Assembly (NCBI RefSeq): GCF_027012695.1
Contig: NZ_JALUYR010000088.1
Span: forward strand, 1-43,331
DNA from: Thermococcus sp.
GTDB taxonomy: Archaea > Methanobacteriota_B > Thermococci > Thermococcales > Thermococcaceae
Length of the DNA: 43,331 bases
Direction of reading: 5' to 3'
Shown: positions 11,818 to 14,751 of the stretch, piece after piece
Numbering within the stretch: the stretch's first letter is position 1
How the letters are laid out: each line of letters opens with the position of its first letter
The notes under the pieces: model-generated
Told to the model about the DNA's origin: nothing
Databases searched by the model: none
Seen by the model: the letters and a program-made list of their open reading frames with translations, nothing else
Made by a program: the position numbers and the translations under genes

Positions 11818-12174
11818 ATGTTCGTCGGACACTACAGGGACGTTCCGGAGAAGGAAACAGGTTTTGATGGGGTAACCATCCGCTGGCTCGTTTCTCCGAA
11901 ACTGGGGGCGAAGAACTTCGCCATGCGCTACTTCACCATGAGGAAGGGATCGGAGATCCCGATACACAGCCACGACTGGGAGCACGAGATATTCATAGTG
12001 AGGGGCGAGGGAATAATCACCAACGGAAAGGAGGAGTACCACGTTAAAGAGGGGAACTTCCTCTACGTCCCGCCCAACGAGCCCCACGGCTACAAAGCAA
12101 CGGGGGACACTCTGGAGTTCCTCTGCATAATCCCGGCCAAGAAGGAGGCCATCCCCGAGGACGAGTGGGCCTAG
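11818..12174 (+). CDS. Small cupin-domain protein
   Basis: The 118-residue product is a single-domain cupin. Motif 1 is seen as HSHDWEHEIFIVRGEG (His, His, Glu metal ligands) and motif 2 as EGNFLYVPPNEPHGY (His ligand). A metal ion, usually Fe, Mn or Zn, would sit in the barrel. Small cupins range from isomerases and dioxygenases to sugar-binding sensors, so the reaction cannot be told. A TATA-like CTTAAATATCC lies about 30 bases upstream and GGTGGT just before the ATG, giving a very short leader. The last four bases overlap the 3' end of the convergent signal peptidase gene. Confidence 0.85.
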   Translation: MFVGHYRDVPEKETGFDGVTIRWLVSPKLGAKNFAMRYFTMRKGSEIPIHSHDWEHEIFIVRGEGIITNGKEEYHVKEGNFLYVPPNEPHGYKATGDTLEFLCIIPAKKEAIPEDEWA

Positions 12175-12740
12175 CGCCGGTGGTGGTGAAACTTTATCTT
12201 CTTCCTTCTAATCGCCAGCAGGTCAGCCTTCCTTGACTTGGGCCTTATCGGTTTGTCCTCCAGGAGCAGAAGGGCCATGTCGTAGGCGAGGGAACCTATA
12301 ACGATGAGGAAGAGGAGCAGAACCAGGAGCGGTGTGTAGTACCAGACCATCCCCACCTTAGGGATCACCAGGATTACCTTTCCAATCACCTGCTCCGGGT
12401 AAACCTTCCAGGGGTCGGGGTGCTTCCTGTTGTCGCCCTTGGTGATGAAATAGATCCTCCCCGAGGGATCCCTCTCGATTGCTATTATGCGGTGGGTTAT
12501 TCTGTACGTCGTGTTGTCGAGCGTTATCTCGTAGAGGATTACGTCCCCGGGGCGGAGCTCGCCGGGATCAACGGGCATCGTGATGACGAGGTCGCTGGGG
12601 TTGATGTTCGGCTCCATAGAGTCCGTGAGGATTACGACGTACTGAAAGCCGAAGACGAAGTGGAGAACAACCACTACCAGCGTGAAGATCAGGGTGGCGT
12701 AGGTGAGCAGTGAGACCAGATCCACGCGGCGCTTTAACAT
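12171..12740 (-). CDS. Signal peptidase I, archaeal/ER (SipW-like) type
   Basis: The 189-residue membrane protein is a family S26B signal peptidase. The nucleophile is Ser41 in TDSMEPNI, and His83 in ITHRII replaces the lysine of bacterial enzymes. Aspartates 103 and 109 lie in the KGDNRKHPDP box. One membrane helix precedes the catalytic part (about 8-30) and a second follows it (about 130-150), and the tail is very basic (RRKKIKFHHHRR). The gene is directly downstream, on the same strand, of a small secreted beta-rich protein, an arrangement reminiscent of sipW-tasA. It may be a dedicated processing enzyme and not the housekeeping peptidase; this is inference from position. Confidence 0.92.
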   Translation of the reverse strand: MLKRRVDLVSLLTYATLIFTLVVVVLHFVFGFQYVVILTDSMEPNINPSDLVITMPVDPGELRPGDVILYEITLDNTTYRITHRIIAIERDPSGRIYFITKGDNRKHPDPWKVYPEQVIGKVILVIPKVGMVWYYTPLLVLLLFLIVIGSLAYDMALLLLEDKPIRPKSRKADLLAIRRKKIKFHHHRR

Positions 12741-12867
12741 CCGGACACCCCTGGAACAGGTTCTTGACGGGAGGACTGTTGGGTGATAAAAAACCTTCAG
12801 GCTAAAAGGGTGACGGTGACATCTCCTTCAATCAAAGAGAAGAAACGGGAAGGGACAAGGAGAAGAA

Positions 12868-12876
12868 ACAAAAACT
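12868..12876 (-). terminator. U-rich terminator after the secreted beta protein
   Basis: Eighteen bases beyond the stop of the secreted protein gene the minus strand reads AAGTTTTTGTTTCTTC, a U-rich tract typical of archaeal intrinsic termination. A further TTTTTTAT lies near 12793-12787. Termination is probably partial, leaving some read-through into the signal peptidase gene, which has no TATA of its own that I can see. Confidence 0.45.
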
Positions 12877-12893
12877 TAGGAACATCAGCTAGG

Positions 12894-13385
12894 TTATGAC
12901 TCCACGTAAACTACTGCTACCTTGTAAAAGTGGGCTAAGTCTTCCAGTTTAACCGTCCCCGCTGTAAAGTCAATAGCTGGAGTTCCACCATTATCGGCAT
13001 CGTTGGCGTTGGTGTAGAGCTTGTCAATATCAAAGGTTATATGGCCACTGGTAACCTGTGTGTTGTCTATATTTTTGCTGTAGATGTAGACTAAGTTGTT
13101 CGAATTGTCCAGGAACTTGATGTACACTTTGCCCGAAAAAGTTGCTACAGTTGAGTTAATTGTTAGATCAACGTGGATACCTGAGATAACGTCTGGGTCG
13201 GTGGTAGTGTCCAGGTTCCAGGAGACATCTGCCTGCTGGATTGGGTTTTCAATACGGGTGGGACCTCCCGCGCCAACTCCCTTAACGTGCACTGTAATGC
13301 TCGGCACAGCCAGCGCGGCCCCAACCATGGCCAGCGCGAGGGCAAGCGCCAGCGGGATTAACCTCTTCTTGGTTGACCTCCTCAT
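12894..13385 (-). CDS. Secreted beta-rich protein, possible TasA/AbpA-like filament subunit
   Basis: The 163-residue precursor has a classic signal peptide: MRRSTKKR, a leucine/alanine core, and an ALA-VP cleavage site near residue 26-27. The mature part (about 136 residues) is rich in Thr, Asn, Asp, Val and Ile in alternating strand-like patterns (SITVHVKGV, HVDLTINST, TFSGKVYIKFL, GHITFDIDKL, YKVAVVYVES), with no cysteine and no C-terminal membrane anchor. This is the size and style of TasA/camelysin and archaeal bundling-pilus (AbpA) proteins, in which the new N-terminal strand completes the neighbouring subunit. A signal peptidase gene follows. The gene has a very strong promoter and GGAGGTGAA ribosome binding site. 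Its base composition is lower in GC than its neighbours. The fold assignment is inference. Confidence 0.6.
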   Translation of the reverse strand: MRRSTKKRLIPLALALALAMVGAALAVPSITVHVKGVGAGGPTRIENPIQQADVSWNLDTTTDPDVISGIHVDLTINSTVATFSGKVYIKFLDNSNNLVYIYSKNIDNTQVTSGHITFDIDKLYTNANDADNGGTPAIDFTAGTVKLEDLAHFYKVAVVYVES

Positions 13386-13445
13386 GACAGTTCACCTCCA
13401 TGCTTAAGGTATCTGAGGGTTTTAGCGGATCCTATTTATAAATAG
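13386..13445 (-). promoter_or_regulatory. Strong promoter and ribosome binding site of the secreted beta protein gene
   Basis: CTATTTATAAATAG (13432-13445) is a perfect 14-bp palindrome containing a consensus TATA box; the predicted start point is near 13412. The leader of about 27 bases carries TGGAGGTGAA (13400-13391), a near-perfect anti-16S match. The TAG stop of the upstream methylthiotransferase gene forms one end of the palindrome, so the promoter is embedded in that gene's 3' end. Signals of this quality suggest high expression. Confidence 0.7.
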
Positions 13446-14751
13446 TTTTCTGCTCAGAACTGTGGGGCAATCCCCCGAATGTGGGGGTACCCCTCAGGTA
13501 GGTGGATCCTGTCCGGTCCACCCTGGCTTTGACCAGCTCACCGGCCTTTCCTGAGTCGAGGATTATCTCCTTGTAGTTGAACGTCCTGCCCTCGATCCCG
13601 CCTTTTTCGGCCGGCCCGTGCACGAGAACCTCTATCTCCCTGCCCACGTAGGACCGGTTTATCTCGTAGGCTATCGCAAGGCGGAGCCGGTGCAGAACCC
13701 TGGAGCGCTCCTTTACGAGCCAGCCGGGCAGCTGCTTCCACTTCGCCGCTATCGTGCCCGGTCGTGGAGAATAGCGGGAGACGTTTATCTTGTCAGGCCT
13801 TACCCGCTTCACCAGCTCAACGGTGTTTTGGAACGCTTCATCACTCTCCCCGGGGAAGCCGACTATTATGTCCGTGTTGAGGTTCAGGCCCGGAACCCTT
13901 CGCCTGAACTCCTTAACAATCTCCTCGAACTCCTCAACGGTGTAGTTCCTTCCCATTCTCCTCAGGATTTCGTTGTCGCCGCTCTGGACAGGCAGGTGGA
14001 GGAATTTATAGACCTTTTCACTCCGGTAAGCGTCGATCAGCTCGTCGAGTATCTTTATCGCGTGGTTGGGGTTCATCATGCCAACCCTTATGCGGAAGTC
14101 GCCCTCGATGGCCGTTATCTCGTCGAGAAGCTTAGCTAAGTTAGTCCCTATGTCGAAGCCGTAGCAACCGGTGTCCTCGCTGGAGAGCTGTATCTCCCTA
14201 TAGCCCCTCGCCAGCGCCTCCTTAACCCACTTGATAACCAGTTCGGGCCTGTAGCTCTTGAGAACGCCCCTCGCGAAGCGCGTTGCGCAGTATGTGCATG
14301 CATTCAGACAGCCCTCGCTTATTGGAACCACAAAAGCTACACCAGATTTCCACAGCCTGGGAAGTTCGAGCTTGTCAATGCTCCTCTCGCGCCAGTCCTC
14401 AACGCTGACGAGCTTTCCACCGCGCTCCGCTATGCTCACCGCCTCGGCAATCCTGTCTATGCTCTTAACTCCAAGGATTCCAGAGACGCGCCTGTCTATA
14501 ACCCCAGGATTAACGTGGACCAGACAGCCGGTAGCGATGACCTTCTTCCCGGAATCTATAAGCTCCCGTATTCTGCGGGCCATTTTGTGCTCCGTTGGAT
14601 CCTTGACGGCGCAGGTGTTGACAACAACGTAGTCCGCGTTTTCAGGGGTCTCAGCAAGTTCATGGCCCGCCCTAAGCAGAATAGCTTCCATTATCTCGCC
14701 GTCTGCCCTGTTGCGCGTGCACCCGTAGTTCTCAACGTACACCCTGGCCAT
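13432..14751 (-). CDS. tRNA N6-threonylcarbamoyladenosine methylthiotransferase, archaeal MtaB/CDKAL1 type
   Basis: The 439-residue radical-SAM enzyme converts t6A37 of ANN-decoding tRNAs to ms2t6A. The N-terminal MTTase domain has Cys11, Cys47 (VNTCAVKDP) and Cys76 (ATGCLV) for one 4Fe-4S cluster. The radical-SAM domain has Cys148, Cys152 and Cys155 in EGCLNACTYCATRFARG, and a C-terminal TRAM domain (about 375-425) binds the tRNA. The length fits the archaeal subfamily. TATA-like TTTTTAAA lies about 22 bases before the ATG with no ribosome binding site, so the mRNA is probably leaderless. The next gene upstream encodes a stand-alone TRAM protein, but it has its own promoter. Confidence 0.93.
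   Translation of the reverse strand: MARVYVENYGCTRNRADGEIMEAILLRAGHELAETPENADYVVVNTCAVKDPTEHKMARRIRELIDSGKKVIATGCLVHVNPGVIDRRVSGILGVKSIDRIAEAVSIAERGGKLVSVEDWRERSIDKLELPRLWKSGVAFVVPISEGCLNACTYCATRFARGVLKSYRPELVIKWVKEALARGYREIQLSSEDTGCYGFDIGTNLAKLLDEITAIEGDFRIRVGMMNPNHAIKILDELIDAYRSEKVYKFLHLPVQSGDNEILRRMGRNYTVEEFEEIVKEFRRRVPGLNLNTDIIVGFPGESDEAFQNTVELVKRVRPDKINVSRYSPRPGTIAAKWKQLPGWLVKERSRVLHRLRLAIAYEINRSYVGREIEVLVHGPAEKGGIEGRTFNYKEIILDSGKAGELVKARVDRTGSTYLRGTPTFGGLPHSSEQKTIYK

Follow-up and report, generated by a model that had tools for sequence, protein, structure and literature searches.

The archaeal bundling pili of Pyrobaculum calidifontis are reportedly built from AbpA, a TasA-related, short secreted beta subunit of a hyperthermophilic archaeon. 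TasA itself (PF12389) forms donor-strand fibres in Bacillus subtilis, where TapA donates a strand and cannot accept one (PMC9674648, PMC10151520). The archaeal threads Saci_0406/0405 possess a class I signal peptide, an N-terminal donor strand and a putative cap protein nearby, and thread subunits have in common a YYY motif and an Asp at the mature N-terminus (PMC9715654). In addition, DUF2341 proteins have been proposed as tip adhesins at the clade-1 type IV pilus loci of Thermococci (PMC4858521). A literature search, with the AbpA paper outside its scope, found no description of the module presented here, which consists of a secreted protein (P1), a signal peptidase (P2) and DUF2341 partners.

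The window, that is, the whole analysed stretch of 43,331 nucleotides from Thermococcus sp., contains the following features of the P1-P2 locus.

12894..13385, minus strand: P1, putative secreted subunit precursor of 163 residues, read as an open reading frame with homologs intact in 40 of 61 Thermococcus genomes
13308..13385, minus strand: signal peptide of P1, residues 1-26, class I, with the end VGAALA followed by VPSITV, assigned from the sequence; leader identity co-varies with the peptidase
13266..13307, minus strand: candidate donor strand VPSITVHVKGVGAG, P1 residues 27-40, the mature N-terminal motif, conserved in 40 homologs and modelled at pLDDT <50
12897..13265, minus strand: variable, beta-rich core of P1, residues 41-163, with a median identity of 28% and modelled strands
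12171..12740, minus strand: P2, SipW/Sec11-type archaeal signal peptidase I of 189 residues, assigned by TIGR02228 score and Ser41/His83/Asp103
12741..12893, minus strand: gap of 153 bases between P1 and P2, which holds an intact DUF2341 gene in 8 relatives and remnants in 5
13433-13442, minus strand: TATA-like element TTTATAAATA of P1, assigned from the sequence
13392-13399, minus strand: ribosome-binding site GGAGGTGA of P1, just 5' of the ATG, likewise assigned from the sequence

The initial annotation had described a 163-residue precursor with an ALA cleavage site and a mature part free of cysteine, and a SipW-like peptidase gene with Ser41 and His83; both descriptions are borne out on the frames 12894-13385 (-), whose mature product begins with VPSITVHVKGVGAGG, and 12171-12740 (-), to which Asp103 can be added. 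A TATA-like element, as a candidate for the promoter that it placed 5' of P1, and the ribosome-binding site are also present. The MiaB-type methylthiotransferase encoded by the adjoining gene (window 13432-14751, -) exceeds most of its relatives by 14 residues, and the stop of this gene overlaps the TATA-like element at its edge. The lower GC content of P1, taken earlier as a hint of different origin or fast change, is real in the window genome (mature P1 0.46, P2 0.55, MiaB 0.56), but P1 lies below P2 in just 26 of 40 loci, with means of 0.49 and 0.50. Low GC is therefore a weak sign, and it was rejected as a general mark of foreign origin.

P2 exceeds the cut-off of the archaeal signal peptidase I model TIGR02228 (81.7 bits against 51.85) and stays below that of the Bacillus SipW equivalog NF046067 (57.6 bits against 190). 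Ser41, His83 and Asp103 are invariant in 40/40 loci. Intact homologs of P1 were identified in 40 of the 61 Thermococcus genomes, the window included, with fragments in others; two further genera of the same family contribute another seven genomes. A close relative of P2 lies downstream of the intact P1 on the same strand in all 39 fetched Thermococcus loci and in the window (40/40). In the two further genera, every locus that does not run off its contig keeps the pair intact (6/6), at different genome positions. Since the two genes are adjacent wherever both sides are readable, their pairing is more than chance. P1 homologs lacking a neighbouring peptidase, which the initial annotation regarded as evidence against its reading, were thus not encountered, and P1 shares with TasA-type systems the trait of an adjacent SipW-type peptidase. 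Each Thermococcus genome has two to five peptidases of the TIGR02228 model, of which the class of ~190 residues goes with P1. Leaving contig breaks aside, this peptidase occurs without P1 in one genome, G003; G039 and G040 are contig-edge cases.

Across the 40 loci, the most conserved stretch of P1 is formed by mature residues 1-14, VPxIxVxVQxxGxG. Every locus has hydrophobic residues at positions 4, 6, 8 and 11 with mostly polar ones between them, Q or K at position 9, and G at position 14. This alternation is typical of an amphipathic beta strand; the remainder of the mature part has the low median identity given above. The AlphaFold2 model of mature P1, computed from a six-row alignment, has a mean pLDDT of 61 and a pTM of 0.61, with a beta-rich core over mature residues 22-97 (pLDDT about 70-81) and a C-terminal strand of lower confidence. 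Foldseek of this model against PDB returned no significant fold match, only unspecific beta sandwiches, with no TasA or AbpA among the top 50. Mature residues 1-21, which hold the most conserved stretch, fall below 50. A motif that is conserved yet outside the confident fold is what would be expected of a donor strand, although a shallow alignment could also cause it: the structure-prediction alignments had six and four rows, three contig-scan loci and the window being the admissible rows. An internally paired N-terminal strand, which the initial annotation regarded as evidence against its reading, was not seen in this low-confidence model, where the strand lies outside the confident core.

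The assignment of P1 to the TasA/AbpA type must be divided into two parts. The architecture of a secreted beta protein with its own peptidase and an N-terminal connector strand gains support from the above results; the family label does not. Family searches of P1 against Pfam, NCBIfam and PDB gave no match, hmmscan found no PF12389, hhalign against 15 Thermococcus PF12389 proteins reached 1.6%, and neither an AbpA nor a TasA chain was listed when the whole of the PDB was searched by profile to E 10. Genuine PF12389 proteins, which start AYFSDTETSxGN..AGTLDL, are present in 46 of the 61 Thermococcus genomes at loci other than that of P1, and some of their genes adjoin a different peptidase of 308-332 residues. 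A PF12389 identity of P1 is not supported: the genuine genes form separate loci in sister genomes, and mature P1 starts with VPxIxVxVQxxGxG instead of FSDTETSxGNxIxxGTLDL. The genome of the window, about 91% complete, gave no PF12389 hit. Thermococcus operons (L145-L150) contain one or two PF12389 genes near a SipW-like peptidase of the 308-332-residue class, and these are likely the true TasA/AbpA-type systems of the genus. The pairing with a SipW-type peptidase, the similar size, the beta-rich nature and an N-terminal strand outside the core would also be expected if P1 were a true TasA/camelysin/AbpA homolog diverged past sequence recognition; the negative profile and PDB searches and the dissimilar N-terminal motif make such descent distinctly unlikely. 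Working like TasA and being TasA are separate claims, and support was obtained for the first only. The best reading is a filament built like those of TasA and AbpA from a subunit family that is unrelated or very remote.

The initial annotation was silent on the DUF2341 partners of P1. In eight Thermococcus loci (L039, L050, L055, L057, L058, L064, L069, and L070), an intact gene for a DUF2341-type secreted protein of 364-376 residues is located between P1 and P2, and remnants of this middle gene exist in five more (L032, L035, L048, L060, and L061); no remnant was detected in the gap of the window. Within the L061 remnant, between P1 and the peptidase, lies a TnpB-type gene (L061:5470-6768, -). 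The two middle proteins tested against PF10102 scored 27.4 and 30.0 bits (gathering cut-off 23.4). The mature N-terminus of these proteins, VPSIxLxVQxIG, is P1-like, and the P1 profile matches the middle protein in its N-terminal part only (hhalign 94%). In the g4 genomes, the P1-P2 pair is flanked by a divergent gene for a secreted protein of ~155 residues, whose N-terminus is similar to that of P1 and whose core appears DUF2341-like by eye.

Larger strand-motif proteins of 280-790 residues are encoded elsewhere in Thermococcus, between prefoldin and sugar epimerase genes; the window's own genome has one, of 785 residues (L081). They begin with a signal peptide and the strand motif, continue with a P1-like domain and a second copy of the strand, and in most cases also have DUF2341. 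Four of them scored 52.9-72.8 bits against PF10102, and that of L080 stayed below the cut-off at 20.9. The P1 profile covers their whole N-terminal domain (hhalign 98.6%, E 9e-16), and on this profile evidence P1 and the domain are homologous over the full length of the latter. Scanning with a matrix built from P1 alone and with shuffled sequence as control, the next-best strand copy was found directly after the P1-like domain in 14 of the 18 large proteins (p<=0.03 in 11); because the 18 are mutually related, these are not independent tests. If the modules are strung by strand complementation, this is the site where the donor strand of the preceding domain should stand. In the AlphaFold2 model of the natural tandem (four rows, pLDDT 55), only the P1-like domain was folded and both strand copies had low confidence. 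The model was left out of the evidence for strand insertion, which it neither shows nor excludes, since neither copy was placed with confidence.

That several otherwise different secreted proteins have only the N-terminal strand in common would also suit a non-polymerising P1, secreted or attached to the S-layer, whose strand docks it and the DUF2341 proteins on a shared surface receptor. However, a terminal docking tag leaves the internal strand copy, placed exactly after the P1-like domain in the large proteins, unexplained, and we consider the docking explanation rather unlikely.

The three components P1, P2 and DUF2341 proteins are also found grouped at different sites in the genomes of other genera. 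The P1-P2 pair occupies the site between prefoldin and epimerase in genome G082, which also has a 421-residue frame (L136:3864-5129, -) in which a SipW-type peptidase is in frame with a strand-motif secreted protein, signal peptide included; if genuine, a single chain would hold the enzyme ahead of its own substrate, and a sequencing error is possible. The prefoldin-epimerase site together with this frame without a stop argues that P1, P2 and the DUF2341 class are one system. Genome G030 (L143) has neither an intact P1 nor a P2-class peptidase, and all that its prefoldin-epimerase locus retains of the large strand-motif protein is a wrecked copy, which suggests that the whole system was lost together. 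A search of plasmids gave no match, and in viral contigs DUF2341 matches were obtained with one query only and none with the P1 queries.

The earlier proposal of DUF2341 proteins as tip adhesins in Thermococci clade-1 loci (PMC4858521) would allow P1 and its partners to be accessory or tip parts of type IV pili. Against this, P1 has a class I signal peptide, not a class III pilin signal, and a dedicated signal peptidase I, and no type IV pilus genes were recognised beside the loci read; this explanation is regarded as highly improbable. P1 was also rejected as a type IV pilin, since its leader ends in ALA before a beta-type mature N-terminus, and as an archaeal thread subunit, since mature P1 starts with VP and has neither the N-terminal Asp nor the YYY motif (PMC9715654).

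On the strength of its secretion signal, dedicated peptidase, shared and repeated strand and linked DUF2341 partners, all read from the sequences, P1 is somewhat more probably than otherwise the principal building block of a surface filament in Thermococcaceae that is assembled by donor-strand complementation. The resident peptidase P2 would cut the leader of P1 and free the strand VPxIxVxVQxxGxG, which would fill the open groove of the next P1, and so onward from head to tail. The DUF2341 proteins that have the strand and no P1-like acceptor domain could presumably only donate, and would thus stand at the start or end of the filament in a TapA-like role as tip or initiator, with DUF2341 as a possible adhesive head. 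Proteins that combine a P1-like domain with DUF2341 would be adaptor, anchor or tip subunits in which one joint is already within the chain. P1-type proteins might instead be secreted monomers, and their extended N-terminal strand might be bound to the S-layer.

The mature part of P1 does not follow the genome, a second point absent from the initial annotation. Over the 40 loci, Mantel tests showed no correlation of P1 core identity with the MiaB-type neighbour (rho 0.02, p 0.40), with P2 (-0.04) or with the P1 leader (-0.05), whereas leader and peptidase correlated with one another (0.56, p 0.0005) and with MiaB (0.28 and 0.37). The downstream cupin, used as a control, gave 0.36 against MiaB and -0.04 against the P1 core. 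Thus L055 and L070 have mature parts that are 86% identical and peptidases that are 50% identical, and L039 and L064 have peptidases that are 88% identical and mature parts that are 28% identical. Four larger groups and three two-member groups of mature P1 types can be distinguished across the genus. A core uncoupled from its genome while leader and peptidase follow MiaB implies exchange of subunit types, and the simplest reading of these comparisons is that the mature segment has been exchanged and the resident leader and peptidase retained. DNA-level identities of the exchanged pairs are weakly discriminating, and old balanced P1 types are the alternative to exchange. The exposed part of P1 would then exist in several types that do not track the relationships of the genomes. 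Selection by viruses or partner cells would fit this picture and may be the force behind these types. The fuller proposal, a new archaeal filament family independent of TasA/AbpA, with genome-bound leader and peptidase and subunit types swapped among species as a switchable surface under such selection, is plausible but somewhat short of an even chance.

If the filament reading holds, filaments of the donor-strand type that have their own signal peptidase originated or diverged on more than one occasion, and there are two such systems in Thermococcaceae. The large paralogs would be natural covalent tandems of a P1-like domain and the next strand, which should crystallise as closed units and make the assembly mechanism directly testable. 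With the mature part uncoupled from the leader, the peptidase and the neighbouring genes, types of filament subunit would be passing from species to species, which is seldom seen in archaea.

Compared with the known systems, P1 resembles TasA/TapA/SipW as a small secreted beta subunit with a SipW-type peptidase in its operon. The minor DUF2341 protein, like TapA, has the N-terminal strand of the subunit and probably cannot accept one. Unlike TasA, P1 lacks sequence or profile similarity, has the donor strand VPxIxVxVQxxGxG and appears to have its mature part exchanged among genomes; unlike TapA, the minor protein here is DUF2341. With AbpA, P1 shares the nature of a short secreted beta subunit of a hyperthermophilic archaeon, donor-strand polymerisation being only predicted for P1, but it is not detectably TasA-related and the Thermococcus PF12389 loci lie elsewhere. 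The archaeal threads are similar in their class I signal peptide, (candidate) N-terminal donor strand and neighbouring putative cap protein, and differ in that P1 is linked to its own peptidase and has neither the mature N-terminal Asp nor the YYY motif. Finally, the DUF2341 domain on secreted partner proteins recalls the tip adhesins of clade-1 type IV pili (PMC4858521), whereas the partners described here have the strand motif of P1 and are associated with a signal peptidase I, not with type IV pilus genes.
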